This document shows positions 20,343-37,561 of a stretch of 64,000 nt of DNA, piece by piece. Under the pieces are notes generated by a model. The model ran no database searches. It was not told the origin of the DNA and was given only the letters and a program-made list of their open reading frames with translations. Location: contig NZ_MTQP01000066.1 in NCBI RefSeq assembly GCF_001984175.1, forward strand, positions 248,001-312,000, given 5' to 3'. Position 1 is the stretch's first letter, and each line of letters begins with the position of its first letter. The translations under genes and the position numbers were made by a program. Origin of the DNA: Saccharothrix sp. ALI-22-I. GTDB lineage: Bacteria > Actinomycetota > Actinomycetes > Mycobacteriales > Pseudonocardiaceae.

Positions 20343-21133
20343 CCGTGTTGGAACACCACCTGCGGACCGCCCGCGCCGACGGGCGCCGGCTGCTGATCCC
20401 GTACGTGATGGCGGGTGTCGTGCCGGACTGGTTGGACCTGGTCCGGGGCGCGGCGGAGGCCGGTGCGGACGCGGTCGAGATCGGGTTGCCGTTCTCCGAC
20501 CCGATGCTGGACGGACCGACCGTGCAGCAGGCCGCCGCCCTCGCGACCCGCCGCGGCGGACGGCCGAGGCCGCTGCTCGACGAGCTGGCCGGGCTGGACC
20601 TCGACGTGCCGCTGGTCGTCATGACGTATGCGAACGTGGCGCTGACGTTGACGCCCTCGCACGGGGTGGGCGGATTCCTCGACCACCTGGCGGCGGTGGG
20701 CGTGCAGGGCGTGATCGTGCCGGACCTGCCGTTGGAGGAATCGTCGGAGTACCTGGCGCGTGCGGCGGAGGCGTCGGTCGCCGCGGTGCTGCTGGCCGCG
20801 CCCGCGTGCGGTGACGACCGGTGCCGTGAGATCGCGCGGGCGTCGTCCGGGTTCGTGTACTGCATGAGTTCGATGCGCACCACCGGCGAACGCAACGCCC
20901 TCGCCACCACCGCCCGCGAGAACGCCCGGCGGCTCAAGGGCATGACCGAGCTGCCCGTGGTGACCGGTTTCGGCATCTCCACGGTGGAGCACGCGGTGGA
21001 GGCCTGTGTGGACGCCGACGGTGTCGTGGTCGGCTCGGCGTTCATGCGGATGCTGGTCGACGGCGCGCCGGTCGCCGAGGTCGTGGACGCGGTGGCCGCG
21101 TTCCGCCGGGCGCTATCCTCGGTCGGAGGTTGA
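20339..21133 (+). CDS. trpA: Tryptophan synthase alpha chain (divergent)
   Basis: A 264-residue TIM barrel that cleaves indole-3-glycerol phosphate. Both catalytic acids are in place: Glu47 (EIGLPFSDP) and Asp58 (LDGPTVQQA), 11 residues apart as in E. coli Glu49/Asp60. Several usually conserved stretches differ: YVMAGVVPDW replaces the common YVTAGDPD, and VYCMSSMRTTGER replaces the usual YCVSxxGVTG loop 6-7 region. It is coupled to trpB by a 4-bp overlap. It could be a normal alpha subunit or an indole-releasing variant. Confidence 0.88.
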   Translation: MTVLEHHLRTARADGRRLLIPYVMAGVVPDWLDLVRGAAEAGADAVEIGLPFSDPMLDGPTVQQAAALATRRGGRPRPLLDELAGLDLDVPLVVMTYANVALTLTPSHGVGGFLDHLAAVGVQGVIVPDLPLEESSEYLARAAEASVAAVLLAAPACGDDRCREIARASSGFVYCMSSMRTTGERNALATTARENARRLKGMTELPVVTGFGISTVEHAVEACVDADGVVVGSAFMRMLVDGAPVAEVVDAVAAFRRALSSVGG

Positions 21134-21151
21134 GAGTCTGGAGTTTCCCTG

Positions 21152-21949
21152 GTGGACGACGGGCGGCGCACTGGCCGTGAGTACGAGACGCGCGTGCCCA
21201 AGTACCTCGCGATCTACCGGGTGCTGGCCGATCGGATCGCCGACGGGCGTTACCCCGCGGACGCGCCGTTGCCCGCGCAGCGGGAGTTGGTCGAGGAGTT
21301 CGACGTCTCGCTGATGACCGTGCGCCAGGCGATCGGGGCGCTGGAGGCGGACGGGCTGCTGGAGACCCGGCACGGGGTGGGCACGTTCGTGCGGCGACCC
21401 GCGTTCTCGTACGGCCTCACCGGGTTGCGGAGCCTGTCGCAGGACCTGGTCGAGCAGGGCATCGAGCTGGAGACCGAGGTGCTGGACGCGGCGCTCGTCG
21501 TGCCGCCGGCGGACGTGAGCGCACGGCTGGGCGTTCCGGCGGGCAGTCGGGTGCTCGCGGTCGAGAGGTTGCGCAGCACCCGCACCACCGGCGCGCCCGT
21601 TCCGCTGCTGCTGCAGACGTCGTACCTGCCGGAGGCGATCGGGTCGCGGATCGGCGCGGAACCCCTGCGCCACCAGTCCCTCTACCGCCTCCTCGACGAC
21701 CTGGGCACGCCGGTGCGGCAGGCCAGCGAGACCATCCAGGCGGTCGCGCTGACCGCCGAGCAGGCCAGGACGCTCCAGCGCGACCCCGGTTCGCCCGCCC
21801 TGCTGAGCTGCCGGCTGAGCCGCGGCGAGAACGGCACCCCCCTGGTGGACGACCGTGCGCTGCTGGTCGGCGACAACACCGTCATCACCGCCGAACGCGC
21901 CGCGACCGGCACCAACCTGGCCTACGAACACGTCACCGCCCCGCGCTGA
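21152..21949 (+). CDS. GntR-family regulator, HutC subfamily (UTRA domain)
   Basis: A 265-residue regulator. Residues about 15-85 form the winged helix (LPAQRELVEEFDVSLMTVRQ, ETRHGVGTFV). Residues about 95-260 are a UTRA effector domain (LGVPAGSRVLAVERLR, LLLQTSYLP). The GTG at 21152 follows trpA by 18 bp with GGAG at 21143-21146, so it is the third gene of the trp operon. UTRA domains sense small metabolites; the TTCTAGA palindrome over the trpB -10 is its likely operator, giving autoregulation. The effector is unknown. Confidence 0.88.
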   Translation: MDDGRRTGREYETRVPKYLAIYRVLADRIADGRYPADAPLPAQRELVEEFDVSLMTVRQAIGALEADGLLETRHGVGTFVRRPAFSYGLTGLRSLSQDLVEQGIELETEVLDAALVVPPADVSARLGVPAGSRVLAVERLRSTRTTGAPVPLLLQTSYLPEAIGSRIGAEPLRHQSLYRLLDDLGTPVRQASETIQAVALTAEQARTLQRDPGSPALLSCRLSRGENGTPLVDDRALLVGDNTVITAERAATGTNLAYEHVTAPR

Positions 21950-21971
21950 GCGGTCTCGGGCGTCGCGGTGG

Positions 21972-23714
21972 TCACTTACCACCCACCGCCTCCAGCCACG
22001 CCCGACGGGCGGTGGCGCGGGTGAACTCGCGGACGTGCAGGCCGGCGCGTAGCCAGGCGAACGGGAAGTCGTCGCCGACGTCGGGCACGATCCGGCCGAA
22101 CGCGTCGCGGCCGCGGTCGCGTGAGGCGTGGGCCAGGTCGGCCAACAGGCCGGCGGTGGCGGCGAGTCCGGTGCGGGTCAGGGTGGCGACGTCGCGTTCG
22201 GCCGACGCGACCGCCGCCACGGCGCGTCCGCCCAGCGCCACCCGGTGCAGCACGTTTTCCAGCGGACGCACCGGGCGTGGGACGCGGTCGGACGGTTCGG
22301 GGCGGGGTGGGAGTTCTCTCGTGGCGTCTCCGGCGACGTGGGAGCGTTGGAGTCGGTCTAGGCCCAGGTCGACGTGGTGCCGGAGTTCGGCGGGCAGGTC
22401 CAGGTCGCCGGACACCGCCAGGGCTACGGCCGTGCCGGGGCGGCCGGGCAGCAGGCGGGCGACGACACGCAGCCGCAGTCCGGCGGCGCCCGCGAGAACG
22501 CGCAGGTTCCCCCTCGCCCACTCGCCCTCGCCGACGAGGTCTACCTGGGTCTTCTCGGTGGCCAGTCGCAATGCGTCGCCCGCAGCGCCGAGCACGGTGC
22601 CGTCCAGGAACAGCAGGTCCGCGCCTGCCGGGCGGTAGCCCTCGGCGCGAGTGTCGGCGTGGAAGGCGCGCAACACCTGGTCGGGCAACGGTTGCGCCCA
22701 CAGATCGGTGAGCGGCGGGTCGTTCCAGGACGCGGCGGACGCGGCCACCGCTCGGACGCTTTTGCCTGCTCCGAGCCGGTGATCGGGCGACGCCGTGCCA
22801 CCGGACAGGAGCAGGCCGCCGCGCCCCGACTCGCGCTGGCTGAGCCCGGACTCGCCGACCGCCACCGGCCCGCTCGCGGCGGCAGTGACCCGTTCGGCAC
22901 CACCCGGCATGATCGCGGGGACGGTCCACAGCACACCGTTGTCGTCGACGAGGTGCGTGACGACGCCGGCGTACCCGGAGGTGCTGATGACCGCCTCGGT
23001 GCACAGGCCGTACAGGCGGAGAGCGCCGATCGGCCGGTACTCGCGCCGGGCGGTGCCGCGCAGTTCGGCCTGCCCGGCGCCGGTGCGGAGGTCGTGGCAC
23101 AGGAGCATCAGGTCGACCCGTTCGGCGGTGAGCAGTTCGCGGTCGAACGACGAGTCGCCGGCACGTGCGGCGGCGAGGGCGGTGGCGATGCGCAGACCGT
23201 TCGCGGCGGCCCGGTGCAGGCCGACGACGCGTGCCGAGTGGACGGCGCGCAGCAGTTCGGCCCGGACCACGGCACCACTGCCGGTGGCACCCGCTCGAAG
23301 CACGGTCGCGCAAGCCTCCCAGAGGGCGGTCGCGGCCGCGCGTTCACCACTCGACGTGGTCTCGGCATCGGGCACGACCTCGACGGTGACGGGAGCGGCG
23401 GCCTCGGGAGCGGCGGCCTCGGGAGCGTCAGCGGCGGCGATGTCGGCCGCGGCGACGGCTATACCCCGGTGCAGGCACTTCGGTGCGAGCAGGCAGCTGC
23501 ACACCAGATCGTCGGCGGTCGTCAGCACGCCTTGGCTCAGCGTCCACGTCAACGCCGTCTCCGAGTCCAGCGTGGCGTGGGCTGTGTCGGCATCAGCGGT
23601 CACCGTCCACTCGGCCACGCGCACCAACGACGCGTCGATCCGCTTCCGCAGCCGGGGCGGCAAGGCGTCGAGCACGTCCGCCACCACTGCCGGAGCCACC
23701 GGGGGCACGGTCAT
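21972..23714 (-). CDS. SWIM zinc-finger protein (YehQ-like)
   Basis: A 580-residue protein with a SWIM zinc-binding motif near the N-terminus: Cys72, Cys74, Cys80 and His82 (VCSCLLAPKCLH), the CxC-xn-CxH pattern. The rest is Ala/Arg-rich and mainly unrecognised, with a small PEAAA tandem duplication at about residues 96-106. SWIM domains bind nucleic acid or protein. The gene is the last of a five-gene coupled operon, its ATG overlapping the DUF5682-VWA stop by 4 bp. In E. coli the equivalent neighbour set contains the SWIM protein YehQ. Function is unknown. Confidence 0.82.
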   Translation of the reverse strand: MTVPPVAPAVVADVLDALPPRLRKRIDASLVRVAEWTVTADADTAHATLDSETALTWTLSQGVLTTADDLVCSCLLAPKCLHRGIAVAAADIAAADAPEAAAPEAAAPVTVEVVPDAETTSSGERAAATALWEACATVLRAGATGSGAVVRAELLRAVHSARVVGLHRAAANGLRIATALAAARAGDSSFDRELLTAERVDLMLLCHDLRTGAGQAELRGTARREYRPIGALRLYGLCTEAVISTSGYAGVVTHLVDDNGVLWTVPAIMPGGAERVTAAASGPVAVGESGLSQRESGRGGLLLSGGTASPDHRLGAGKSVRAVAASAASWNDPPLTDLWAQPLPDQVLRAFHADTRAEGYRPAGADLLFLDGTVLGAAGDALRLATEKTQVDLVGEGEWARGNLRVLAGAAGLRLRVVARLLPGRPGTAVALAVSGDLDLPAELRHHVDLGLDRLQRSHVAGDATRELPPRPEPSDRVPRPVRPLENVLHRVALGGRAVAAVASAERDVATLTRTGLAATAGLLADLAHASRDRGRDAFGRIVPDVGDDFPFAWLRAGLHVREFTRATARRAWLEAVGGK

Positions 23715-26700
23715 CCGCGCACCTTCTCCCCCACCCACCGCGCCAACTCCTGCGGGCTCAACGCGGCGACCGGCATCCCGGCCGCGACCAGCGCGCCCGC
23801 TACCGACGTGGAGTAGCGGGCGACGCCGCGGTCGTCGAGGCTCGCGCACCCGAGCACCATCACGCCTGAGGCGACCAGTTCCCGGACCTGCCCGACGAGC
23901 GGCCCGACCGGACCGCCCTCCTCGAAATCGCTGACCAACACCACCATCGTCCTCTCCGGGACGGTCACCAGGGAACGGGCGTGCCGCAACGCGCCCGCGA
24001 TGTGCGTGCCGCCGCCGACCCGCACCTCCAGCAGCAACGACAACGGGTCGGCCACCCGCTCGGTCAGGTCCACGACCTCCGTCGAGAACGCCAGGAAGTG
24101 CGTCGACAACGCGGGCACCCCGGCGAACACCGACGCGGTCAGCGCCGACCACACCGTGGACGCCTCCATCGACCCGGACACGTCCACCACCAGCACCAAC
24201 CGCCAGTCGCTCGCCCGTCGCCCGCGCGTGCGGAACACCGGGCGTTCCGGCACGACCACGACCCGCCCGTCGGCGTCACGGCGCGCGGTGGCGAGGTTGG
24301 CGCGCAAGGTGCGCGGCAGATCCAGCCGACCACCCGGCCGACGGGTCGGCATCGGCAACTGCATCCCGGTCAACGCCGGCCTGATCCGGTTGGCCAGCTG
24401 CGCGGTCAACTCCCGCACCAGCCGCGCCACCAAGGGCCGCAACCGCACCAGCGCCGACTCCGACAACCCACCGGCCAACGACAGGACATTGCGCAGCAAC
24501 TCCACCGACGGCCGCACCGAGCCGGGATCGATCTCCAGCGCCGCCTCCAGCCGCCCACCTTCCGCCGCCGCGGCCAAGACTTCCTCCCGGACGTGGTCCC
24601 CGAACAGTTCCCGCAGCTCCTCGGACCACTCCCGCACGTCGGGGAACGGGCTGGCACGGTCGGCCCCGAGGTCACCGCGATGAGCACCCTCACCGCGATC
24701 ACGCCCGTACAGCTCGTCCAACGCGGCGGCATAACGCGCCGCACCCGCCGGCCTTTCACCACTCGCCCCCAGCACCAGCCGCCATCGTGTTGATGGCCGC
24801 TGCTCTGTGTTTGATTGCGCCGCCTCCGGCGTCGCGGGCTCGGTCGCCTGGCTGTAATCGACTCGACGCTCCGCGTCAGGGCAGGCCGCTCGTGCCTCAT
24901 TTTCCGACGATCGAAGAGCGTGATCGCCGGAAAATGAGGCACGAACGACCGACGCGACCTCGCGCGGCGGCTGGCTTTGGGTCGGCGCACCGTAGGCGAG
25001 GCGAGAGTCCGCCGGTTCTGCGGCCGGTTCCGGCACCTGTTGGCGGCGTTCGGTGAGCAAACTGTGGGCGCGTAGGGCGTCCATGGCGGACTGCTCGGCG
25101 TCCAACCACATCGCCAGCAGCTCCGGATCTGGCGTGCCGGGGCCGTCCACGCGTTCGCCCGTGCGCTGTTCCACCACTGCCAGCACCCGTGCTCGGGCGG
25201 CCGGGCCGATCGACGTGAACGCCCCGCGCAACGCGGGCAGGCGGTCGAGGAAATCCCGGTCCGCCAAGCCTTCCACCCGGTCCAGCAACGGCGTCAGCGC
25301 TTCGGGTGTCTCCAGCAACGGCCCCGCCGCCGCGAGCACCCCGGTCAGGCCACGCCGCAGCACGTCCCTCCGCTCAGGGGTACCGGCACCGTCCACCCAC
25401 GACGCCACCCGCTCCCCCAACACCGAAGGCGCCACCAACCCGAGCAGGACCCGCGCAGCCCCGGCAGCTCCGGCGATCAGCGGCGCACCCTCGTCGGCCA
25501 GCCGCCGCAGGCAGGCCTCAAGCCGCAGTCCGTGCACGTCGTGCCGCTGGCCGAGTTCCACCAATGCCCGCGCGTCCGCAACGTCGTCGGACCCGGCGAG
25601 CCCGGCCAACTGCGCCACCGCCGCCGTCTCCAGGTCCCGCGCCAGCAACGGGTGCCGGTCCAGGACGTCACCGGGCGTTCCGGGCAGGTGACCGGCGCGC
25701 AGCCGGTCGAGCAGGTCCAACGCCTCCAACAACTCCCGCAACGTCCCGGCCGACGGCAACACGGTCGCCGCGTCGGCCAACAACGTGTCCACCGACTCCG
25801 GCAACCCGCACAAAGCCGCGTCGACGAGATCCGCCAACACCACCCCGGGCGTGTGCCCGCCCCGCTGCTCACGTTCGGCGCGACGGGCCCGCAACCGTCC
25901 GGACGCGGCCAGTTCCAGCGTCGCGCCCCACATCCCGGCCACCGGCAGGGTGGCGGCCGTCGCCGGGGTCCACGCCGCCGTCCACCGGGTGGTGAGCGCG
26001 TCACCGCCGCCGACACCGGTGGTCTCCGTCTCCTCGGCGTACGTCACCCCGAGCACGGTCAACCGCCGCAACGCCACCTCACGCCGCGCGTCCAGCGCCG
26101 ACCGCAACGGGTCCAGCCGCAGCGACACCGGCTCCCGAGAGTCGGGACCGGGCAGCCGCAGGGAGGCGAGCAACGCCTCCACCGCCGGCGCCAGCCCCGA
26201 CCGGGGCGTGCCGGGCGCGAGCACCCCGGTGCGGTGCCCCACCAACACGTCCCCGGCGGCCCGCGCCACCACCCGCCCACGGCCCAGCGGTTCGGCCTGC
26301 GTCAGCACGGTCTGCACCGCCTCCACCACCTCGCCCCGGCCGGGTGCGGGCAAGCCGCGCAGCCGTGCCAGGTCGACGGCCAGCCGCAACGCCTCCCGCG
26401 CCTCACCCGGACCGGCCGGGTGGCCGAGTTCCCGGACCCGCACGCAGATCCGCACGATCACCGACGCGGCGGCAGCCTCCACCGCCTCCGGATCGCCCGC
26501 CGCCGCCAACACCGCCTGCTGCCACTCGGGATCGCGAATGCCCGCCGGATAACCGGAACGCTCGTCCAGCAACGCGAACCCGTACGGCACCAACGACGTG
26601 ACGACCTCGGTCGCACCAGGCGTCGAGTCGTCCGTCGGCCCCTCCAGCAACGCCGCCGCGTGGAACGACCCGACCACCGCCGCGCACCGACGCCCGTCCA

Positions 26701-27352
26701 CACCCAGAACCGCACGCCGCATCCACGCCTCCCGACGCAGGTCGAACGGGTCCACCCCGGTGCCCTCGGCGTCCCGGCGCAACGCCCACCCGACCAGCAA
26801 CGCCGCCCGCCGCACCGCTTCAGCGGTCTGACCGGGTGCAGCTGCCTCCACCAGCCGGTCCCACAGGTCATCACCGTCACGGCCGGTGGTCGCCCGGCGC
26901 AACGCGTCCGTCAGCGGTGACGCGCCCTGCCGTTCGCCCCGGTGCCCGTCACCGCGCAAGGCGAGCGGCAGGTCACACGGCCGGACCTCCACGCCGTTCC
27001 GGTACGCCCAGCGGATCGCGGCCAACTCGGGCGAGAAGTCCGCGAACGGGTAGAACGCCAGGTCACCGTCCGGCGAGGCACCGGACAGCGCAACCGGCGC
27101 CACCAGGTCGGGATCAGCCAGAAACGGCAGCCACCGCCCCAACTCCTCGGGCAACTCGACCAGCACCACCTCAGGCGCGAACGCCTCCAACAGGCCGGGA
27201 ACCACCGCCGCCAGCGCAGGCGAGTGATGCCGCACCCCGATGAGATACGGGACGTCGTGTTCGGCCAGCCGATCAACCACCTCCCGACTGGCCACCTCCC
27301 CGCCAGCCACGGCTCGGTCAGTCATCTCTCGGTCAGGCGTCGAGGACGTCAC
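23711..27352 (-). CDS. DUF5682 and VWA domain fusion protein (YehM-YehP-like)
   Basis: A protein of 1,213 residues (GTG 27352; ATG 27325, just past the ATPase stop, is an alternative). Residues about 30-800 match the DUF5682 family, starting PYLIGVRHHSPALAAVVP. From about residue 855 (TRWRLVLGASGE) a second protein type begins, ending in a von Willebrand A domain with the metal site DVSGSM at 1057-1062 and later VVLVSDFEEGG. In many genomes, including E. coli (YehM and YehP), these are two genes. The junction (about residues 800-855) is low-complexity and contains the in-frame inverted repeat at 24891-24943. VWA proteins of this type work with the MoxR ATPase, here encoded immediately upstream. 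Confidence 0.85.
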   Translation of the reverse strand: MTSSTPDREMTDRAVAGGEVASREVVDRLAEHDVPYLIGVRHHSPALAAVVPGLLEAFAPEVVLVELPEELGRWLPFLADPDLVAPVALSGASPDGDLAFYPFADFSPELAAIRWAYRNGVEVRPCDLPLALRGDGHRGERQGASPLTDALRRATTGRDGDDLWDRLVEAAAPGQTAEAVRRAALLVGWALRRDAEGTGVDPFDLRREAWMRRAVLGVDGRRCAAVVGSFHAAALLEGPTDDSTPGATEVVTSLVPYGFALLDERSGYPAGIRDPEWQQAVLAAAGDPEAVEAAAASVIVRICVRVRELGHPAGPGEAREALRLAVDLARLRGLPAPGRGEVVEAVQTVLTQAEPLGRGRVVARAAGDVLVGHRTGVLAPGTPRSGLAPAVEALLASLRLPGPDSREPVSLRLDPLRSALDARREVALRRLTVLGVTYAEETETTGVGGGDALTTRWTAAWTPATAATLPVAGMWGATLELAASGRLRARRAEREQRGGHTPGVVLADLVDAALCGLPESVDTLLADAATVLPSAGTLRELLEALDLLDRLRAGHLPGTPGDVLDRHPLLARDLETAAVAQLAGLAGSDDVADARALVELGQRHDVHGLRLEACLRRLADEGAPLIAGAAGAARVLLGLVAPSVLGERVASWVDGAGTPERRDVLRRGLTGVLAAAGPLLETPEALTPLLDRVEGLADRDFLDRLPALRGAFTSIGPAARARVLAVVEQRTGERVDGPGTPDPELLAMWLDAEQSAMDALRAHSLLTERRQQVPEPAAEPADSRLAYGAPTQSQPPREVASVVRASFSGDHALRSSENEARAACPDAERRVDYSQATEPATPEAAQSNTEQRPSTRWRLVLGASGERPAGAARYAAALDELYGRDRGEGAHRGDLGADRASPFPDVREWSEELRELFGDHVREEVLAAAAEGGRLEAALEIDPGSVRPSVELLRNVLSLAGGLSESALVRLRPLVARLVRELTAQLANRIRPALTGMQLPMPTRRPGGRLDLPRTLRANLATARRDADGRVVVVPERPVFRTRGRRASDWRLVLVVDVSGSMEASTVWSALTASVFAGVPALSTHFLAFSTEVVDLTERVADPLSLLLEVRVGGGTHIAGALRHARSLVTVPERTMVVLVSDFEEGGPVGPLVGQVRELVASGVMVLGCASLDDRGVARYSTSVAGALVAAGMPVAALSPQELARWVGEKVRG
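24891..24943. repeat. In-frame inverted repeat inside the DUF5682-VWA gene
   Basis: Two perfectly complementary 16-bp arms (CGTGCCTCATTTTCCG at 24891-24906 and its reverse complement at 24928-24943) enclose a 21-bp loop. The arms contain an A/T-rich ATTTT core unlike the surrounding coding sequence. The element lies exactly at the junction between the DUF5682 part and the VWA part and keeps the frame open. It looks like a small mobile palindromic unit or a captured intergenic hairpin. Confidence 0.8.
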
Positions 27353-28478
27353 GGAGTTCCCACAGGCGTCGCCAGGTTCGGGCGCCGGATTCGGCTCGGC
27401 GGCGAACCGCGCCGTCCCAGTAGCCGAGCAGTCGGGCCGCGTCGCCGGGGTCGTCCTTGCGGACCACGCCGAGCAAATGACCTGGCAGCAACGACAGGGG
27501 GTCGCGGTCGCCGGGGAAGTAGGCGTCGGCCAGGCCGAGCGAGGTCGCGACCGACACCGCCTCCGCCGTGCTCATCACCGTGGACGGCCGTTCGACCGCC
27601 CAACCCTCCTCCGACACCCCGTTGCGCAGGTCGCGGAACGCGGTGACCAGCACTTCCAGCACCACGTCGTCCACCGCGAACGGCGCGCTCACCCGTTCCA
27701 TCGCGGCACTCGCCTGGCGGCGCACCAACGCGGTCTCGGCGGCCAGGTCGCCGATGGGTCCGACGGCCTCGAAGTTGAACCGCCGCTTCAACGCCGCCGA
27801 CATCTCCGACACGCCCCGGTCGCGCAGGTTCGCGGTGGCGATCACGGTGAAGCCTGGGGCCGCGTGCACGGTCGCGCCGTCCGTACCGGACAACTCGGGC
27901 ACCGCGATGCGCCGGTCCGACAGGATGGACACCAACGCGTCCTGCACCTCGGGCAGGCATCGCGTGACCTCCTCCACCCGCACCACGCCGCCGCCGCGCA
28001 TCGCGGTGAGCACCGGTGACGGCACCAGGGCGCGCGGGCTCGGCCCTTCGGCCAGCAGGAGCGCGTAGTTCCAGCCGTAGCGCAACTGGTCCTCGGTCGT
28101 GCCCGCCGTGCCCTTCACCACCAGCTGACTGCTGCCGGAGACGGCGGCGGCCAGCAGTTCGGACAGCATCGACTTGGCCGTGCCGGGCTCACCGACCAGC
28201 AACAGCCCGCGCTCACCCGCGAGCGTCACCACCGCCCGTTCGACCAGCGCCCGTTCACCGACGAACTTCGGGCTGATCACCATCCGCGACGGCACGCCGT
28301 CCACCGAGACGCCCTTGGGCAACGCCAACGGATCGCCGCTACCCATCACGAACGTGACCACGGCGCGCGGGGTGAGCCGCCATCCCGGCGGACGCGGGCC
28401 GCTGTCGTAAGCCGCCAGGAACGCCAACTCGTCGCGGTAGGCGTCCTCGGCCGGTTCGACCTGCCTGGGAGCGGTCAC
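27333..28478 (-). CDS. MoxR-type AAA ATPase (YehL-like)
   Basis: A 381-residue AAA+ ATPase: Walker A GEPGTAKSMLSELL, a Walker-B-like segment VVRVEEVTRC, sensor-1 VIATANLRDRG and the arginine-rich ALKRRFNFE (arginine finger). MoxR ATPases remodel partner proteins together with VWA-domain proteins, and the next gene encodes one. GTG 28478 has GGAGG 8 bp upstream and overlaps the previous stop by 4 bp. It is the enzymatic motor of the five-gene system. The walker-B acid is Glu rather than the more common Asp-Glu pair, which deserves a check. Confidence 0.88.
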   Translation of the reverse strand: MTAPRQVEPAEDAYRDELAFLAAYDSGPRPPGWRLTPRAVVTFVMGSGDPLALPKGVSVDGVPSRMVISPKFVGERALVERAVVTLAGERGLLLVGEPGTAKSMLSELLAAAVSGSSQLVVKGTAGTTEDQLRYGWNYALLLAEGPSPRALVPSPVLTAMRGGGVVRVEEVTRCLPEVQDALVSILSDRRIAVPELSGTDGATVHAAPGFTVIATANLRDRGVSEMSAALKRRFNFEAVGPIGDLAAETALVRRQASAAMERVSAPFAVDDVVLEVLVTAFRDLRNGVSEEGWAVERPSTVMSTAEAVSVATSLGLADAYFPGDRDPLSLLPGHLLGVVRKDDPGDAARLLGYWDGAVRRRAESGARTWRRLWELRDVLDA

Positions 28479-31400
28479 CTGCGTCCTCCGGTCTTCAACT
28501 CTTCGTAAGCGGGCGCATCGCCGTCGACCACACGCCGCCAGGCGCGACCGAACAGGTCGGCGATGGGTTCGAACGGCACTATGACCTCGCGAGAGGCGGT
28601 GGTGAAGCCGAACATCGGCGCCTTCCACGACTCCAGCGGCAGGTGCGGGGCGGACAGCGGCAGCCACCCGCCGGGCAGGAACAGCGACCGCCCGGCCCGC
28701 GCCCGTTTCGCGGTGAGCACCAGGTCGGTCTCGGCGAGAGCGGCACGGGCCTTGCGCAGCCGGGCGGGCTTCCAGCCGGTCCACCGCGCCACGTTGGCGT
28801 CCGTGGGATCGGGCAGGGCCAGTAGTTGCAGGTACAGCACGGCGGCGTCCTCGGACAGGCCGAACTTCCCGGCCGCCTCCGCCACCAGGTGAGGCACCGA
28901 CACCGTCGGGTCCTGGTGGTAGGCGGCCGGATCGACGCCCTCGGGCGCCACGACAGCGCACGCGGCAGTGAGGCCGTCGTCGGCCAGCCGGTCCAGCGAC
29001 TGGAGCGCGTCCTGCGCGCCGATGGTCTCCACGAGCGCGAACAGCAGGTCGCGGTCCGCCGGTCCGACCAGGCCCGGCCGCAACACCAAGCGGCAGTACT
29101 CCGCGTTGATGCCCGCCAGCTCCAGCCAATCGCGGTGCCGGTGGACGATGCCCTCGGCGGGCAGGTCGACACCCAGCAGGGCGCGCACCCGCTCGATCGG
29201 GACCCACGCGCCGAGTTCGAGGGCGAAGCCCTGGTGCGCGACCCGTTGCCGCGCCAGCGCCAACGCCTCCGGCAACCGCGCCCGCAGCGGCGAACCGATC
29301 GGCAGCCGGTGCGCCAACCACGCCAACACCTGCGGCACCGCCCACAGCACCGCGCGGTCGAACCCGTGACCGTGACGGGCCTCCAACGACGTGCCGGTGA
29401 ACCGGAAATCGGCGTCCGTGGTGAGCCAGGACGTGCGGTCGGGGTTGACCACACCCGTCACGTACTCGCCGACGCCGGACAGGTTCAGCAGCTTCACGGC
29501 GTCCACGAGCACGTCGTCCGGCACCGGCGAACGCCGTCCGTGCTCGGCGACCCACACCTCGGCGACGGCGTCCACGTCGGGCCCGCGCGTCCACAGGTCG
29601 GCCGGATCGGCGGGCACCGCGGCAGCGAGCAGCCGAAGGCGGGTACCCGTCGTCCAGCCCTCGGAGCCGTTGTTTCGCGGCCTTCGCACCACCCGCCGAC
29701 AGACCGATCTGCTGCCGTTCGGCTGTGCCGAGGTAGTTCGCGCCCCACTGGTCGACGCCCGGCATCCCGGCCAGCAGCACCGCGGCCTCGGCGGTGCCCA
29801 GACCGGTGCGTTCCGCCAACGCGGGCACCGCCTCCGGGAACCACGGCGCGGGGCCGCGCGAAGCCAGCACGTCGAGGAACCGGGCGACCTGCGAACGCCC
29901 GAACGGCGTGCGCACTTCCTCGGCGGTCTCGACCGTCCAGTGCTTCGGCAGGTCGAACACCCCTGGCGTGCGGGTGTACTGCACGCCGTCGAACCGGCTG
30001 CCGGGCTCATGGCGCCACTGGGTTTCGAACAGGGCGATGAACCCGTCGCGCACCGGCGTGACCCGGTCCTTCGGGTTCGCCTGTCCCGCGTGCACGATCA
30101 CGCCTACCGTGCGCCAGTGCCCGTCGCCGTCCGCCAGGCCGCTGTCCGCGACGGACCGCAGCACCAGCACCAACGCGTCGCGCTCGTCGTCCGGGGTGAG
30201 CGGTGACGCGGCGCGGTGGGCCAACGCGGCGAGGTGCGGCAGCGCCCGGAACCAGCCGGGGCTGCCCGACTCGGGCAGCGCACGTCCCTCCGGCCGCGCG
30301 ACGGTCTCGCCGAGCGCGGCGATCAACGCGGGCAGGGCGGTCGGCGTGGTGCCGTGCGAGTTGCTGGACCGGTAGCCGCCGAACCAGCCGAGCGCGGCGT
30401 TGACCGCATCCTCGGTGATCTTCGGGCCGGTGGGCGCGACGACGGGTTCGACCCTGCGTGCCGCCACCGCGAGTTCGGCGTACCCGCGGTAGGAGCGCAG
30501 CAGGTCGACGGCACGGCGCACCAGGTCCACCACGCCGACGATCAACGCGGGATGGGTGAGGCCGGGCAGGGCGGAGATGACCACATCGGTGAACGCGTCG
30601 CGTTCACCGCGCAGCAGTGCGATCAGCCGGTCCCGGATCGTGCCCTTCTGCTTCGGCGCGGCCAGTGCGGCGGCGAGCATCGCGTCCACGGTCTCCCGCG
30701 TCACGCCGCGCAACATCGCGGAACCGGCCTCGTCACGCGGCCGGAGGAGGTGCCACCAGTCCAACGGCGGAACGAACGGCGTGCCCGTCGCGTACAGCGG
30801 GTGCTGCTCGCTCCCGGACACCGTGGCCAACGTGATGCCGTCGCCGTCGAGCAACACCATCGAGTCGCGCCCGCCCGCGAGCGTCACCTCGGCCCCGCCT
30901 GGCAGCCGCAGCACACCCACCGGATGCTGGAGATCGCCGGGGAGCCGGACCCGACGCCCGTCGACACCCTCGCCGACCCACGAGCCGTCGGCCTCACGAC
31001 GCACCCGCCACCCGTGCAGGCCGCCGGCCGCGCCGAGCGGGCTACCCGACGTCTCCGGCAGCGCAGGCCTCAGGTCGCAGTGGTCGAGGGCCAGGGTGGC
31101 ACCGTCGACGGCGAAGTCCTCCACGAACCGCGGCAGACTCGCCCGGCCGAGCTCGCCGCCGGCCGGATCGACCTCGTACCAGCGCCAAGCCTGCTCCCGG
31201 TAGTCCACGGTCCACACCGTGGTGCCGTCACCGTGCGCCGCCTGCGGCCTGGGCACGACCGTGTCACCGGGGTGCACGGCCCGCCCGCCGGCGAAGCGAC
31301 CACCACCGGGCAGCGCGATCGACGCCGTCAGGCCGCGCCCGTAGTGGTACCGGCTCTCACCGATCTGGAAGACGCGGTCGGGCGCGTCACTCCAGTACGC

Positions 31401-33293
31401 CAACTCGCCGTCCGGCCCGTACCAGCGCACCAGCAGCACCCCGTCGATCCAGGACGCGACCGGTTCGAACGACCAGCGCTGCCGCATATCCGCCGGAATG
31501 CGGGAAACGTGCTCGGCGAGCACCCCGTCCGGCCCGACCACGACGAACGTCTCACCGCGGCGCAGCACCAGCGCGGGCCACCCCTCGCCGCACACCACCA
31601 CGTTCTCGTCCTTGGGCACGCCGGCCGACCTCAGCCGACCGACCGCCTCCTCCAAAGCGGGCCACCCCAACTCGTCCAGCAGGCCGGCGCGCAACGTCCG
31701 GTGCAGGGCGGCGGCGACGTCGGCGCGGGCAAGCGATTCGGCCGCCTCCGGGACGTCCACGAACGCCTCGGGCACCCGCACCACGGCCAGTCGGTCCAGG
31801 TGATGGGTGAGATCGGGCAGCCCGGTGGCGACGACCCGCGCGGCCCGGCGGGTGATCCACGAGCCCAGCGCACTGCGCAGACCCGGCACCGCCATCGCGG
31901 CGGACAGCACGTCGGGGCTGATCCGCACCGAGCGGGCGGTGTTGCGGGCGTGCTGGACGAACCCGCTGCCCAGCGCCGGGCCGAACCGCTCGGACGCGGC
32001 CAACGCGGCCAGGTCACGGCGGCCGGGCCGGTCGTCGGCCAGCCACCCGGCCACGTCGAGTTGCTGGTCCTGGTCGACGGGCGCGATCGGCACCCCGCGC
32101 GACACCAACAGGTCCAGCAGGTCCAGTTCGCGCTGACGCCAGTACCGCAGCGCCCGGACCGGCACGCCGTCACCGACCAACCGATCGGCCATCGCCTCGA
32201 CCAGTTCCAGCAGCTTCACCGACCGCCAGGTGTTGGACCAGCCCGACGAACGCACCGCCACCACCGACGACAGCCACTCGGCCGAGTCCGCCAGCACCTC
32301 TTCGTCCGCCTTGATGAGCGCACGGGTGGCGCCGCAATCGGCAAGGATGTCCAGCCACGTGTCGAGCGCGGCGTTCGAATCCGGGACGAACGACAGCAGC
32401 CGGCCGCGCACCTCCACGTCGTCCTTCGCCAACGCCACCAGTGAGGTGCGGTAGGCCTTCCAGAACGCGCCGCCCGCGCGGCTGATCGCGGAACTGTCGA
32501 GAATCCCGCGCAGCAACCGACCATCCTCAACGGCCGGGTCGCGCTTGGCGGCCTTGGCCAACCGCCGCAGGTCCTCCGGCATCCCCGTGTACGGGGGCAG
32601 GCCGCCGCGCGTGCGTTCGACGCACAGGGTGAAGAACAGCTCGTAGGCCGCGTCCGGGTCGTGCTTGCGCGCCAGGCCCTTGGCGTGCGCGGACAGCGCC
32701 TTGGCGGTCAAGGCGCCGGCGAACGCGAACTCCAGGAACACCTCGCGGGTGCGCTCCGGGTCCACCGCCAGGTCGTGCACCTCCTCCGCCTCACGCGCCT
32801 TGCCGAACATGCTCGCCGCGTAGGTGGTGTTGCCGTGCTGGAGGAAGATCCGCCCGGCCTGCTCGTAGAACGTGGGCAGCAGGTGCGGCGCGGACCGGCC
32901 CAGCATGTCGCCGAGCGCGGTGAACCCGTCCTTGGCCGCGCCCGCCCGGGACTTGGCGGTGCGGGCCAGCCGTTCGACGTCCTTGACCAGGTTGAGCGCG
33001 TGGTGGGCGTTGGCCGGGTCGTGCACCAGCGCCCACGCGGGGAAGCCGAGGGCGCTGCGCCGGCCGGTGCCGACGTCGGCGATCCGGTCGGGCGCGGTGA
33101 ACCCGAGGTATTCGCAGGTCAGGTCTTCGGCACGGCCCAGCACCGCGGGCACCAGCCGCACCACCACGCGGTCGTCGAGACCGGGGTGGGCGTAGTGGCG
33201 GGCGGTGATGGTGTCGCGGTCCTCGCCGACGTCGGTGGTGCCGGGCAGCACGGCCCCCGCCGAGATGAGGGCGTTCGAGGTCAGAGGTTTCAC
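28475..33293 (-). CDS. Large protein of the DUF4132/MoxR/VWA/SWIM operon, with apparent single-base frameshift
   Basis: Read in two frames this is a protein of about 1,600 residues. From GTG 33293 the first frame runs to LRGLDDG near 29648; the second frame carries on with TRLRLLAAAVPADPADLWTRG and ends at 28475. Removing one base in 29641-29650 restores one continuous protein. The N-terminal third is helical and repeat-like (YEQAGRIFLQHGNTTYAASMFGKA resembles a TPR/SEL1-type turn); a beta-rich region (about residues 560-900) follows. No catalytic motif was found. It overlaps its neighbours by 4 bp on both sides. Either a sequencing or assembly error, a true mutation, or programmed frameshifting could explain the break. 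Confidence 0.7.
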
Positions 33294-34174
33294 TGGGCCA
33301 CCGCCGCTTCCTGCACGACCCGGCCGGCGTGGATCGCCGACGCCATGCGCATCCCCTCGGACCACGCGACCGGTCCGACGTCGGCGAGCGCCAACGCGGT
33401 TCCGTCCGCCAGCGCCCACCGCAGCTCGCCGGTCCAGGTCTCGCCCTCGGGGTAGTCCGAGCCGAGCCAGTAGCGGGCCTCCACGACCCTGCCGTCCTCG
33501 AACGCGGAGTAGACCGCGTCGCCGCCGCGCACCGGGTAGCCGAGCGTGCGGCAACGGCCCACCGCGTGGTTGAGCTGCTCGAACTTGCCGCCGGCGTAGT
33601 CGTCCACGGACGTCTTGCCCGCGGCCGGCACTGTCGGGCGGGCAAACGTCTGCCGGAACAGCTGCTGCACCTTCTGCTCGACCCCCAGCTCGGCGCCGAA
33701 CTCGCGCAGTTCCTCCAGGTCGTCCAGCAGCACCGGGTGCGGGATGCCCACCACCTCGGGCCGCAGCCGGCGCGTGTCGCCGTCGAGCGTTACCACGCCC
33801 AGCCCCCGCTCGGGGTCGGCGTCGCGCAGGAACCCGGTCTCCACGCCCCTGCCGTCATCGGCCGTGACGACGAGGTCGCGCAGCGCGTCGGCCCACGCGG
33901 CGTCCGCCCAGACCTCGGCGATCAGGGCCGTGGGCACCGGCAGGGAGCGGACCATCCAGCCGTCCACGGCGGACAGGCACTCCGCCTCGTGGCGGGACAG
34001 CCACTCGGCGAGCTGTCGCAACTGGACCACCTGCGGGTCGTCCTTGATCGACGCGGGTACCGAGGAGAGGAGCTTGCCCTTGCCGTTTCGGCACTGGACG
34101 CGCCCGTTCTCCCCGAGCCGCACCTGGTACCCGGAAGTGTGCCCCGAGAGATGTTGGGCATCGAGCCAGCCCAC
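33290..34174 (-). CDS. DUF4132-like protein, first gene of the five-gene operon
   Basis: A 294-residue soluble protein. It opens with a small WGR-like or beta-rich module (SGYQVRLGENGRVQCRNGKGK) and continues with a DUF4132-like region (GFLRDADPERGLGVVTLDGD, GIPHPVLLDDLEELREF, ADVGPVAWSEGMRMA). In E. coli the comparable domain is at the end of YehI/MolR. GTG 34174 has AGGAGG 6 bp upstream, which settles the start. The stop overlaps the next start by 4 bp. The 5' side is free of coding sequence, so the operon promoter must lie within about 34175-34350. The family name is from memory of related actinobacterial proteins. Confidence 0.7.
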   Translation of the reverse strand: MGWLDAQHLSGHTSGYQVRLGENGRVQCRNGKGKLLSSVPASIKDDPQVVQLRQLAEWLSRHEAECLSAVDGWMVRSLPVPTALIAEVWADAAWADALRDLVVTADDGRGVETGFLRDADPERGLGVVTLDGDTRRLRPEVVGIPHPVLLDDLEELREFGAELGVEQKVQQLFRQTFARPTVPAAGKTSVDDYAGGKFEQLNHAVGRCRTLGYPVRGGDAVYSAFEDGRVVEARYWLGSDYPEGETWTGELRWALADGTALALADVGPVAWSEGMRMASAIHAGRVVQEAAVAQ

Positions 34175-34350
34175 GGTTCCTCCTGCGAGTCGTTCACGAC
34201 GGTGTGGGGCAGGAGGCTAGCGAGGGGGACCGACAAAACGATCAGTTCAGTGTGTTCGCCGCCACGCCGTGACCGGGCAGCGGCGGCACTACCTCAAGTC
34301 TTGCCCAAATAGGATGCGATTGTGACCGGGGTCTCCCTAACCTCAATGCC

Positions 34351-34512
34351 ATGAGACTGCTGCTGTGGACCGCACTCACGTGCGCCCTCGCGGTCGCCGG
34401 GGGGATGGTCCTACCACTGCTGGCCGGCATCGCGCTCGTCGGCTGCGCCGACGACCACCTGCGTCGCGGGACGAGCCGCGCGTCATCTCGCCGTGATCTC
34501 TTCATCCGCTGA
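34351..34512 (+). CDS. Possible 53-residue membrane peptide
   Basis: A short frame with ATG 34351 encodes two closely spaced hydrophobic stretches (LLLWTALTCALAVAGGM and VLPLLAGIALVGCA) and a basic tail. Codon third positions are G/C-rich. There is no clear ribosome binding site, so translation is uncertain; it may be leaderless or not a gene. It lies divergently upstream of the five-gene operon. Confidence 0.35.
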   Translation: MRLLLWTALTCALAVAGGMVLPLLAGIALVGCADDHLRRGTSRASSRRDLFIR

Positions 34513-34761
34513 CCGGAATAGACGATCAATACAGACGATCAATAAATCGCCAAGAAATCCACGCCTGGTGTGACGCACACTACTTGACCTGTGTCCGAGT
34601 AGCGGTTTAACTGCGCTGACGCGTTGAGCGGGTCACCCACCTGGGTGATCTCAACGCGATCACGACGCAATCACGAGGGCACGGCGCGCCCATTGTTCCT
34701 GCCGCCACGGGCTATTCGACAGGTCCGACGGTGGGTGCCGCCTGCCGCTGGGAGTTCCGCA

Positions 34762-36135
34762 ATGTCCCTGCACACGTGGATCGAACACGCCGTCCACGGG
34801 CTTGCCCACCGCGTCCGCGGTCGGGTACTGATGTCTCTCATGGCTGGTGTCACGGGCATGGCCGCCCTGAACGCCCCCTCGGAGCCGGGAGCAGCGGAAC
34901 CGGGCGCCTCACCGCCGGTGACGTCGGAGCAGGCCGCCCCGCAGTCGACCTCCCCGCAGTCGACGGCCCCGCAGCCGACCACGCAGCCCACCGCGCAGGT
35001 GCCCGCCGCAAGCGGCCGCACCCGGTCGTTCTGGCTGCACATGAACAGCACGCCGGTCACCGACGCGCAGCTGGCGACCGAGGCGAAGCGCCGCGCGTAC
35101 ATCGTGCTCAACGCCTGGGAAGGCGCACTGATCCCCAAGCTCAAGGCGGCGAACCCGGCGGTCCAGGTGTTCGTCTACAAGGACCTGACGTCCACCCGCT
35201 CGTACGCGTGTCGCGACGGCGTGGACGACGCGCAGCTGCCGACCGGTGTCGGGTATTGCCAGGCGGAACGCGATCACCCCGATTGGTTCCTCCGCGATCG
35301 GAACGGCAACCGGTTCGAGTACAGCGGCTATTCCGGGCACTGGCAGATGGATGTCGGCAACACCGGCTACCAGGCCGCGTGGGCTGACAACGTGATCAAG
35401 AGCAGCACCGCTTCCGGATTCGACGGCGTGTTCATGGACAACGCCCTCTTCCCGTGCGACGCGTATCACGACGGCGTCTGCCCGGCGAAGTACCCGACCG
35501 ACGCGGCGTTGCAGGACGCGTACAAGTCGATGTTGTCCAACACCCGGGACGAATTCGTCTCCGCCGGGTTGAAAACGGTCGCGAACCTGTCCAACGCCCG
35601 CCTGCACGCCGGGGCGTGGGACGCCTACTCCGAGTACCTCGACGGCGGCTTCGACGAGTGGTGGCTGACCTTCGACGACTCCAACCTGCTCCCTGAGTAC
35701 GCCGAGGGGTGGAGCAGGCAGGTCGCCGAGATCGCCTCGAACGAGGCCAAGGGCAAGATCACCTGGGTCCAGCCGCACTACAGCGCCGGCCAGGACCGGC
35801 CGTACCGGTACGCGCTGGCCAGCTACTTCATGGCGACGGGCGGGCTGGCCGCGATCTCGGACATCGAGCAGACCGACCGCTACGACGACGCGTCGCCGTG
35901 GCGCGCCGAGTACGACTGGGACCTCGGCACGCCCGCCGGTCCCTACCGCTCGGTGGCCAAGAACGTGTTCCAGCGCGACTTCGCGTGCGGCACGGTCGTG
36001 GTCAACGCCAACCCGACCGACACCGGCGCGGTCACCGTGCAGGTGAACGGCGCTCACAAGGACGAACGCGGCGCGACCGTCACGTCGGTCTCGCTGCCGG
36101 GCACCTCAGGATCCATCCTCCGCAGGACCTGCTGA
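34762..36135 (+). CDS. Secreted GHL15-like putative glycoside hydrolase
   Basis: A 457-residue protein. An N-terminal hydrophobic segment (about residues 24-38) precedes a Pro/Thr/Gln-rich linker (about 55-85, with short TSPQSTAPQ-type repeats), as in exported proteins. The TIM-barrel region has RTRSFWLHMN, AYIVLNAWE, VFVYKDLTS, ASGFDGVFMDNALF and TVANLSNAR, and matches the hypothetical glycosyl hydrolase family 15 (GHL15). The Asp in FMDN at the end of strand 4 is the expected acidic active-site residue. ATG 34762 has GGAG at 34751-34754. The end overlaps the histidine kinase gene tail by 30 bp on the opposite strand. Substrate unknown. Confidence 0.8.
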   Translation: MSLHTWIEHAVHGLAHRVRGRVLMSLMAGVTGMAALNAPSEPGAAEPGASPPVTSEQAAPQSTSPQSTAPQPTTQPTAQVPAASGRTRSFWLHMNSTPVTDAQLATEAKRRAYIVLNAWEGALIPKLKAANPAVQVFVYKDLTSTRSYACRDGVDDAQLPTGVGYCQAERDHPDWFLRDRNGNRFEYSGYSGHWQMDVGNTGYQAAWADNVIKSSTASGFDGVFMDNALFPCDAYHDGVCPAKYPTDAALQDAYKSMLSNTRDEFVSAGLKTVANLSNARLHAGAWDAYSEYLDGGFDEWWLTFDDSNLLPEYAEGWSRQVAEIASNEAKGKITWVQPHYSAGQDRPYRYALASYFMATGGLAAISDIEQTDRYDDASPWRAEYDWDLGTPAGPYRSVAKNVFQRDFACGTVVVNANPTDTGAVTVQVNGAHKDERGATVTSVSLPGTSGSILRRTC

Positions 36136-37560
36136 CGGTTGAGCTGACGCAGCCAGCGGCAGAAGGACCTGGAAACGGGTGTCGCCGGGCTCGGACTCGA
36201 CCCGGATGTCTCCGTGGTGACGATCGACCACGATCCGCCAGGAGATGTCCAGGCCGAGTCCGGTGCCCTCACCGACCGCCTTGGTCGTGAAGAAGGGCTC
36301 GAAGATGCGGCCCTTCACCTCGGCCGGGATACCGGAACCGGTGTCACCGATCTCCACTACCAGGTCGTGACCGGCGCGGGACGTTCGCACTGTCAACGTC
36401 CCGCGCCGGTCCATTGCGGCCACCGCGTTGTCGATCAGGTTGGTCCACACCTGGTTGAGTTCGGCGGCGTAGGCGGGCAGTGGCGGCAGTGCCCGGTCGT
36501 AGTCCTTGACCACCCGCACGCCGTCGCCGATCTTGCCGCCGAGCATGACCAGCGTCGAGTCGAGCAGTTCGTGCACGTCGACGACCTGGAACGGCGCGCG
36601 GTCCACCTGCGAGTACTGCTTGGCCGCGCCCACCAGCGTGGACACCCTCGTGGTGGCGTCCTCGATCTCGTTCATCAGGGTCTCGGTGTCGACCGTGTAG
36701 GCCAGCCACCGCACGGCGGCCTCGGTCGCCGTCGCCGGGCACAGGGCCGCCGCCCGGTCGAGCCATTCGACGTCCAGCCCGCCCGCGACCAGCACCGGGG
36801 CCAGGTCCCAGCCGCCCGAGATGCCGTGCGCGTCCAGCCAGTCGGCGACTTCGTCCTCCAGGTCCGCGGTCTCCATCGGCCCCAGCTTCGGCGCCTTCGC
36901 GACCCGCTCGACCGCGCTCTCCTGCAACTTCACCAGCACCGGCAGGGTGGCCGGGTCCAGCGAACCGCTCGCCAGCAGGGCCAGCTTGTGCCGCATCCCG
37001 GCAACCCGCCGGCGCAACGCCCCGGTCGCGCGCACCGCGGCGGCGGCCGGGTTGTTCAGCTCGTGGGTCAGCCCGGCCGACAGCGAGCCCAGCGCGAGCA
37101 GCCGCTCCCGCTGGCCCACGATCCGCTGGGTGTTGCGCAACCCGAAGAACAACCCCTCCAGCAGGTGCACGGCCATCGGGAACCACTCGCGGAACACCGC
37201 GCCGAAATCGGTCGCGGGCAGTTGGTACAGCCGCACGTCGGTCACCGCGTCCGCGGTCATCTGGTAGACGGCCGTGGTCTCCGAGTCCAGGTTGAGGTAC
37301 GCCTGGGTGGACCCGAAGTACGAGCCGCGGTGGTCGGTGCGGTTGGTCTCCACGCGTTGGCCGCCGATCACCCGGCTGAGCGCGACCGTGCCGTCCAGGA
37401 GCACGAAGAAACAGGTCGCGGGCTGCCCCTCACGCAGCACCTGGGTGCCCGCCCCGTGCGTCTCCACCTCGCCGTGGGCGACGAGCCACCCCAACTGCTC
37501 CTCGGACAGGTGCTCGAACAGGAACAACCCGCGCAGGTCGTCGACCGTCAGCTTCTCCAC
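36106..37560 (-). CDS. Sensor histidine kinase with N-terminal cNMP-binding domain
   Basis: A 484-residue soluble kinase with no membrane helices. Residues about 1-130 are a cyclic-nucleotide-binding-like beta barrel (GAGTQVLREGQPATCFFVLLDG). The phospho-acceptor is the His in SAGLTHELNNPAAAAVR, followed by the N box (VWTNLIDNAVAAM), G1 (GDTGSGIP) and G2 (GEGTGLGLDIS). GTG 37560 starts one base after the stop of the upstream receiver/oxidoreductase gene, so the two are a pair. The kinase probably reads an intracellular signal and phosphorylates the receiver domain of its partner. Confidence 0.9.
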   Translation of the reverse strand: MEKLTVDDLRGLFLFEHLSEEQLGWLVAHGEVETHGAGTQVLREGQPATCFFVLLDGTVALSRVIGGQRVETNRTDHRGSYFGSTQAYLNLDSETTAVYQMTADAVTDVRLYQLPATDFGAVFREWFPMAVHLLEGLFFGLRNTQRIVGQRERLLALGSLSAGLTHELNNPAAAAVRATGALRRRVAGMRHKLALLASGSLDPATLPVLVKLQESAVERVAKAPKLGPMETADLEDEVADWLDAHGISGGWDLAPVLVAGGLDVEWLDRAAALCPATATEAAVRWLAYTVDTETLMNEIEDATTRVSTLVGAAKQYSQVDRAPFQVVDVHELLDSTLVMLGGKIGDGVRVVKDYDRALPPLPAYAAELNQVWTNLIDNAVAAMDRRGTLTVRTSRAGHDLVVEIGDTGSGIPAEVKGRIFEPFFTTKAVGEGTGLGLDISWRIVVDRHHGDIRVESEPGDTRFQVLLPLAASAQPSAGPAEDGS

Positions 37561-37561
37561 G

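Follow-up and report, generated by a model that had tools for sequence, protein, structure and literature searches.

A YehL-type MoxR–VWA operon in Saccharothrix with a predicted TIKI-like pocket and a fast-evolving large partner

The subject of this report is a five-gene operon in a 64,000-nucleotide stretch of the genome of Saccharothrix sp. ALI-22-I (contig NZ_MTQP01000066.1, positions 248,001 to 312,000; hereafter the window, in whose own numbering coordinates are given), which might encode an ATP-driven remodelling machine with a built-in hydrolase. The genes all lie on the minus strand, run from 34174 to 21972 and overlap at every junction (33290-33293, 28475-28478, 27333-27352 and 23711-23714), as an initial annotation made from the letters of the DNA had proposed and as a recheck of the coordinates bears out. 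In the order in which they are read, they encode a DUF4132 protein (whose GTG start has a Shine-Dalgarno-like AGGAGG directly 5' of it), a large protein, a MoxR-type AAA+ ATPase, a fusion of DUF5682 with a VWA domain and a SWIM zinc-finger protein (Table 1). The MoxR-type motor and the VWA domain with an intact DVSGSM motif, both named in the initial annotation, are confirmed by Pfam (AAA_5 at E 1.6e-35 for the former) and by the motif itself. A sixth minus-strand gene at 21113-21982, overlapping the stop of the SWIM gene, was considered and rejected as the shadow of a plus-strand GntR/UTRA gene (21152-21949), and so was 34909-36105 on the minus strand as the shadow of a plus-strand GHL15 gene, in both cases on the guanine-plus-cytosine (GC) content of codon positions and on Pfam; since these flanking frames are shadows, the operon has five genes.

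Table 1. Features of the operon and its upstream region, in window coordinates (aa, amino acids).
Feature	Coordinates	Strand	Basis
DUF4132 protein, 294 aa	33290..34174	-	Pfam PF13569, E 1.5e-27; profile match to YehI-type C-terminus, E 1.5e-5
Large protein gene ('LARGE'), about 1,600 aa in relatives, frame-broken in the window assembly	28475..33293	-	Frame analysis
Frame-change stretch of the large gene	29640..29665	-	Codon-position GC; intact copies in relatives
Beta-propeller-like domain of the large protein, approximate	30696..31688	-	Mapped from L034 model, residues 129-457 of the modelled piece
MoxR AAA+ ATPase, YehL subfamily, 381 aa, P-loop GEPGTAKS	27333..28478	-	AAA_5 over first 376 residues
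DUF5682-VWA fusion (YehM+YehP), 1,213 aa	23711..27352	-	Pfam DUF5682, E 7.8e-190; blastp to YehM and YehP
DUF5682 N-terminal domain, residues 30-262, predicted TIKI/TraB/EreA-type fold	26567..27265	-	Model, conservation
VWA_CoxE domain, residues 986-1207, metal ion-dependent adhesion site (MIDAS) motif DVSGSM	23732..24397	-	Pfam, E 3.7e-61
SWIM zinc-finger protein, 580 aa, YehQ position	21972..23714	-	Alignment, Pfam of relatives
CxC-x5-CxH SWIM motif	23469..23501	-	Invariant C72, C74, C80, H82
Intergenic promoter region, divergent from plus-strand GHL15 glycosyl hydrolase gene	34175..34623		Upstream sequence

The closest described relatives of the operon are found in Escherichia coli. Over 377 amino acids, the window's MoxR shares 46% identity with E. 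coli YehL, and a blastp search against E. coli proteins identifies the fourth protein as YehM and YehP fused, which upholds the kinship with the yeh cluster put forward in the initial annotation. RavA-ViaA is likewise a MoxR-VWA pair, but its motor is of another subfamily (23% identity to RavA over 152 amino acids). By sequence, then, the operon belongs to the YehL clusters, as a variant and not as a new kind of system. The E. coli cluster (yehI-yehK-yehL-yehM-yehP-yehQ) likewise has a YehL-like MoxR, DUF5682 and VWA homologues (YehM and YehP), a DUF4132 protein and a SWIM protein; the window differs in having DUF5682 and VWA fused, a separate DUF4132 protein that aligns to the C-terminal ~290 residues of YehI-type proteins, no gene in the place of YehK, an additional protein of about 1,600 amino acids without a profile match to YehI-type proteins, and a SWIM protein that aligns over the zinc motif only. 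In E. coli, yehM is present in 5,284 of 5,426 genomes. A resistance transposon is inserted in the metG/DUF4132/yeh region in a branch of E. coli sequence type 131, according to passages of PMC9334617, so disruption there is tolerated.

That the system is undescribed, as first supposed, is true in part. Passages of PMC3893208 name YehL as one of seven MoxR subfamilies, while searches of PubMed Central by family and gene names, a collection that leaves most subscription papers uncovered, did not, among the matches listed, bring up a title or abstract that deals with what the yeh operon does, nor a paper joining MoxR with TIKI or 'SWIM zinc finger' with MoxR; three papers there name DUF4132 and none DUF5682, and literature passages name yehQ and yehM among mutated genes.

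A scan of species genomes with the DUF5682 alignment matched 589 stretches, 567 of which were confirmed, and the best 80 loci were kept; these hold DUF5682 by construction, so the mix of layouts among them is no census. One protein alignment of the analysis (A5) took 18 of 19 rows plus the window's, L068 being dropped. Where the locus leaves room, MoxR stands beside DUF5682 in 70 of 72 cases and VWA in 70 of 71. Among 58 loci with room on both sides (runs of the same family counted once), 38 have the window's order, DUF4132-large-MoxR-DUF5682-VWA-SWIM, so that the neighbourhood is indeed conserved, as the initial annotation would have it. Another 15 read SWIM-(DUF5691)-MoxR-DUF5682-VWA, three of these being followed by a YehI-like gene, and the remainder are variants of the window's order that lack MoxR (two) or a recognised DUF4132 (two) or have an additional large gene in front (one). 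The SWIM-first operons (e.g. in Rhizobium, Deinococcus and Chitinophagaceae) have the same core in the same order, but DUF5691 replaces DUF4132 and the large protein, the SWIM gene comes first, and DUF5682 and VWA are unfused; the SWIM proteins of the two layouts gave no match beyond chance (hhalign, P 0.12). The window's own genome holds a second operon, of SWIM, a DUF5691-like gene, MoxR, DUF5682 and VWA (G000:C66:386000-405900). A third layout, VWA-MoxR-DUF5682, with its other operon partners unrecognised, occurs in five of five loci (L146-L150) of divergent class-level DUF5682 matches. In all, the core was seen in at least three gene orders and in Actinomycetota, Myxococcota, Planctomycetota, Bacteroidota, Cyanobacteria, Deinococcota, Rhizobium and E. 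coli, the window's order in Actinomycetota, Myxococcota and one planctomycete, and the SWIM-first order in Bacteroidota, cyanobacteria, proteobacteria and some Actinomycetota. As the core recurs with differing partners, the recurring unit is MoxR, DUF5682 and VWA, around which the other genes can be exchanged.

The initial annotation had all five products forming one fully coupled machine, which goes too far, as the partners are separable. Of 148 genomes of the class, 31 have DUF5682 and 11 the large protein; eight of nine near-full-length large genes adjoin DUF5682 with a MoxR-sized gap (judged by eye, the two pieces in the window counted as one), and the large gene stands away from DUF5682 in one genome (G200) and in five further partial or diverged places. 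Two orphan loci (L153 and L154) carry DUF4132 and the large protein in one open reading frame, which is why these two look like a unit that is not bound to the motor. Two Streptomyces operons (L058 and L078) have no MoxR within the locus examined, which counts against the machine that we favour; their large proteins form one clade with support 100. Homologues apart from the MoxR and VWA genes, which the initial annotation had named as evidence that would count against it, thus exist for two of the five proteins (the large protein and DUF4132), and with these orphan or fused copies and the two MoxR-less operons, full coupling into one machine is borne out only in part.

Not every gene is intact in the window. 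The second gene had been taken for a single open reading frame, which it is not: 33293-28475 spans 4,819 nucleotides, one over a multiple of three, and codon-position GC content changes frame within the 300-base interval 29,401-29,700, the two readings meeting at about 29,640-29,665. In a survey of 25 genomes of the genus, the window's included, 24 match the second part of the gene and one has no match; the best match lies in an open frame of 1,631-3,496 amino acids in 23 of the 23 other matching genomes and in one of 540 amino acids in the window's. An extra partner of some 1,600 residues, as first described, therefore exists in relatives, but the window's copy is frame-broken. Compared with four relatives, the two halves have similar ratios of non-synonymous to synonymous substitution rates (dN/dS), of 0.40-0.43 and 0.36-0.48, and because both are equally constrained the break is either very recent or a sequencing error. 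The first frame, read from 33293, meets no stop before 27333 and so runs into the MoxR frame, from which a gene caller would produce a spurious large-MoxR fusion of 1,986 amino acids. The MoxR open reading frame also extends far upstream in the single-copy loci L025, L032, L035, L036, L063, L064 and L076. Nine of nine operons fetched from the genus are complete (L021-L026, L028/L029, L032 and L033).

DUF5682 is where a catalytic activity might reside. In an AlphaFold2 model (mean predicted local distance difference test score, pLDDT, 86.3) it consists of a beta-alpha N-domain followed mainly by helices, and four of the 50 VIA rows shown lie wholly inside residues 1-260, i.e. three chains of Tetrahymena complex IV (Z 9.4, 9.3 and 9.2; 4.4-4.6 Å over 187-190 residues) and HopBA1 (Z 7.2; 3.5 Å over 148 residues). 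The latter is listed as a TIKI superfamily protein in passages of PMC6254334, and Tetrahymena complex IV contains a TraB-family subunit according to passages of PMC10060162; rank 1 in BFVD is a TraB family protein (Foldseek, E 3.1e-3, probability 1.00). Forty diverse DUF5682 members (alignment A2, 39 of 77 matches of at least 600 amino acids after redundancy removal plus the window's) share the motifs G-x-R-H-H, a Glu after the second strand, R-E-x-x-M and G-x-x-H. H42/H43 and E66 are found in all 39 rows that have letters at these positions and R207 and H231 in all 40 rows; by eye, five of five divergent type C proteins show the same motifs. These residues correspond by position, without residue-by-residue superposition, to H50, E78, R261 and H289 (EreC numbering), which do the chemistry in Ere enzymes in the account given in passages of PMC7979712. 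Passages of that paper and of PMC6254334 describe a His, a Glu, a basic residue and a late His as used by Ere and TIKI enzymes, and the latter source has RRSP requiring a 2His/2Glu set.

Several observations weigh against this assignment. There is no significant sequence match to the TIKI/TraB/erythromycin-esterase superfamily, whose fold the N-domain is predicted to adopt, with His, Glu, Arg and His in corresponding positions, and DUF5682 differs further in sitting on a MoxR-VWA machine with a mainly helical extension of ~500 residues. Foldseek returned no DUF5682 match at E <= 0.001; hhalign to an EreA-family alignment did no better than decoys (score 17.2, P 0.21; seven decoys at 14.4-19.7), its single aligned piece being the expected RExxM...H on RDxxM...H; TraB_PrgY_gumN was matched by one of 40 members (E 0.19); and the window's N-domain alone has no Pfam match except DUF5682 at E <= 10. 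That the matched Tetrahymena chains are the TraB subunit we infer from the paper and not from the structure entry, and so it stays, since a TraB protein tried as a bridge to that chain gave nothing useful; PF01963 occurred at one locus in 60 genomes of the phylum, too few for a TraB profile. Proteins of the TIKI fold also need not be hydrolases of this type, as passages of PMC7979712 have ChaN binding heme and passages of PMC6254334 describe PMT as being without the 2His/2Glu set. No row named EreA, ChaN or PMT is among the fold-library rows shown for DUF5682, which does not exclude them, and searches of solved-structure sequences with the DUF5682, large-protein and SWIM profiles gave chance matches only. 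On balance we regard a TIKI/TraB/erythromycin-esterase fold of the N-domain as probable, and an active hydrolase, predicted from the model and the conserved residues, as having about an even chance.

The heme-binding ChaN also lends itself to another explanation, namely that the operon encodes a maturation chaperone, in which MoxR-VWA remodels one enzyme so that a metal or other cofactor can be inserted. The pocket of DUF5682 would then bind this cofactor or pass it on, without cutting anything. MoxR proteins of known function such as NorQ-NorD and CoxD do act in maturation (passages of PMC3893208), the window's VWA domain is of the CoxE family (Pfam), and a yehM mutation arose in copper-exposed E. 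coli populations (passages of PMC12409786). Yet no enzyme with a cofactor is encoded in the operon or in the two flanking genes scanned on each side, the invariant positions in DUF5682 include the acidic and basic ones of a hydrolase active site and not the histidines alone, and a fast-evolving, tandemly duplicated subunit would be odd for a single fixed client. We find this explanation rather unlikely.

The subunit in question is the large protein, for which Pfam gives nothing above chance in any of 27 members (alignment A3, 27 of 29 non-redundant sequences, L043 and L055 dropped) and no match for either part in the window. It was tried as a relative of YehI and of DUF5691, and hhalign found nothing in either case (P 0.6 and P 0.037). 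The AlphaFold2 model of the C-terminal 1,197 residues of the Saccharothrix luteola relative (L034) has a mean pLDDT of 84.3, and its residues 129-457 match beta-propellers, with nearly all of the 50 VIA rows shown (Z 5.5-7.0) being structures that we take to be propellers. Foldseek propeller matches reach a probability of 0.99, with no E below 0.001, and it counts against a firm assignment that no propeller row exceeds Z 7.0, which is middling on VIA's scale. From their sequence, the N-terminal 400 residues read as helical, and the last 150 residues of the model look by eye like a winged helix. The large protein evolves fast: within the genus (eight relatives each) its dN/dS of 0.36-0.58 exceeds that of MoxR (0.04-0.11) and of VWA (0.04-0.14) in eight of eight comparisons, and at non-synonymous sites it changes 5-9 times faster than MoxR. 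Residues 101-200 are a quiet exception (ratio of non-synonymous to synonymous polymorphism, pN/pS, 0.12). Three relatives in the genus have several nearby large matches, one of them (L028) with three copies in a row, and tandem copies are also found elsewhere (L067, L068 and L082; Actinoplanes, Actinospica and Arachnia loci). In a large-protein tree, from which only the grouping of real tandem copies and that of the pair without MoxR are taken, and which is to be read with caution at long-branch joins, the copies of L028 and of L067 each form their own clade. A conserved docking end, a fast body and spare copies would fit a recognition subunit, and a frozen motor beside a large subunit that changes fast and is duplicated also indicates where specificity is to be sought.

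A fast-evolving, duplicated, beta-propeller-bearing subunit would also suit a conflict module (anti-phage or self/non-self) of the kind proposed by Kaur et al. (2020), in which the large protein senses an intruder and the motor releases the DUF5682 hydrolase, damaging the target or the cell. The MoxR-vWA ternary conflict systems in passages of PMC7159879 share with the window a MoxR and vWA core, a beta-propeller-like domain in a partner and, in the published FtsH and beta-propeller systems, the GXXXTAKS P-loop, which is GEPGTAKS in 54 of 55 type A MoxRs of the scan loci. They differ in that none of the five window proteins has a VMAP, iSTAND or FtsH domain by Pfam, the propeller-like domain is in a separate protein, and VWA_CoxE ends at residue 1207 of 1213. 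There is a weak match to bpMoxR, but at 22.3 bits it falls below the cut-off of 27. Matches occur in 40 of 72,556 plasmid records, but in one of 50,697 phage records, an unannotated one from human stool with a partial, DUF5682-like stretch at 32% identity (MT835988.1:11511-12761); no PADLOC (2023) model scores above chance, the single match being REase_II (E 0.021). The genes are, moreover, common and not patchy where tested, as seen above in the counts for yehM, for the large gene in the genus and for complete operons. DNA resembling the flanking region adjoins the operon upstream in 6 of 17 loci (the comparison was queried with shadow frames, so it shows similar DNA, not proteins); a fixed genomic site gains little from this, because two of the six (L023 and L034) are one locus and three (L023, L025 and L034) are inverted. 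A defence role is possible, but we do not favour it and rate a conflict module as distinctly improbable; the distribution fits a conserved cellular function.

The last component, the SWIM protein, had been recognised from its CxC-CxH motif, and the claim holds for the residues, C72, C74, C80 and H82 (CxC-x5-CxH) being invariant in 25 aligned rows (alignment A4, all 24 relatives plus the window's), but not for the domain by profile, the window's protein having no Pfam match of its own at E <= 1; PF04434 is matched by 13 of the 25 members at E <= 0.5 (best 0.00037). This invariant motif is one of the arguments for a DNA-damage or stress factor, in which DUF4132/WGR (MolR-like) and SWIM modules would, after stress, link the motor with DNA or with proteins that have been damaged. 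YehF also matches the N-terminal part of YehI (35% over 137 amino acids) and is annotated with PF05406, which we take to be the WGR family. Passages of PMC8533742 add that Deinococcus radiodurans drA0166, which holds DUF4132, rises upon DdrO depletion and that MolR is a member of the LexA regulon. Still, inspection by eye of the region upstream of the operon in the window revealed no LexA-like box, and Pfam finds no second domain in the window's DUF4132 protein and no DNA enzyme in the core, which makes this role very doubtful.

Slightly short of an even chance, but ahead of these alternatives in our estimation, is that the operon encodes a YehL-type MoxR-VWA remodelling machine with a built-in TIKI-like hydrolase, whose targets are chosen by the large subunit. 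Its computed elements are the gene set, gene orders, homology, invariant residues, unequal rates and predicted folds; ring and complex formation, catalysis, the recognition role and the target are what we infer. In such a machine (i) the MoxR protein would form an ATP-driven ring, (ii) the VWA domain, fused to DUF5682, would serve, as a co-chaperone with a MIDAS, to bring the ring to its target, (iii) the motor would pull or bend the target protein open, (iv) the His-Glu-Arg-His pocket of the DUF5682 N-domain would act on the opened protein, cleaving a peptide or other bond, (v) the fast-evolving large protein (helical, beta-propeller-like, helical) would select the target together with DUF4132 and (vi) the SWIM protein might add a zinc module that binds protein or nucleic acid. 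A broader proposal, which we put forward as speculative and in itself unlikely, sees in the YehL clusters a novel class of processing machine driven by ATP, in which a MoxR ring steered by a VWA co-chaperone would feed clients to an attached TIKI-type hydrolase, the choice of clients lying with exchangeable adaptors (the large beta-propeller protein with DUF4132, DUF5691, or YehI).

As for the surroundings, the operon is divergent from the GHL15 glycosyl hydrolase gene (34624-36135, plus strand), beyond which 36106-37614 on the minus strand encodes a protein that combines a cyclic-nucleotide-binding domain with an ATPase domain of the histidine-kinase type. No match to a sigma-70-type promoter was found within 34100-34800. 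Some 350 bases before the DUF4132 gene, a 10-base direct repeat, TTGATCGTCT, occupies 34520-34542 on the minus strand (13 bases from start to start) and is a possible operator.

What is new here, on our reading, is the TIKI-type pocket in DUF5682 and the large protein as an exchangeable specificity subunit. The predicted pocket in DUF5682/YehM makes an uncharacterised gene set testable and, if the proposed machine is right, a nearly universal E. coli gene set would gain a biochemical role and ATP-driven protein processing a new design. Should the broader proposal be true as well, some 97% of the searched complete E. coli genomes, and bacteria of many other phyla, would harbour an unrecognised machine that takes its place next to Lon, Clp, FtsH and the proteasome.

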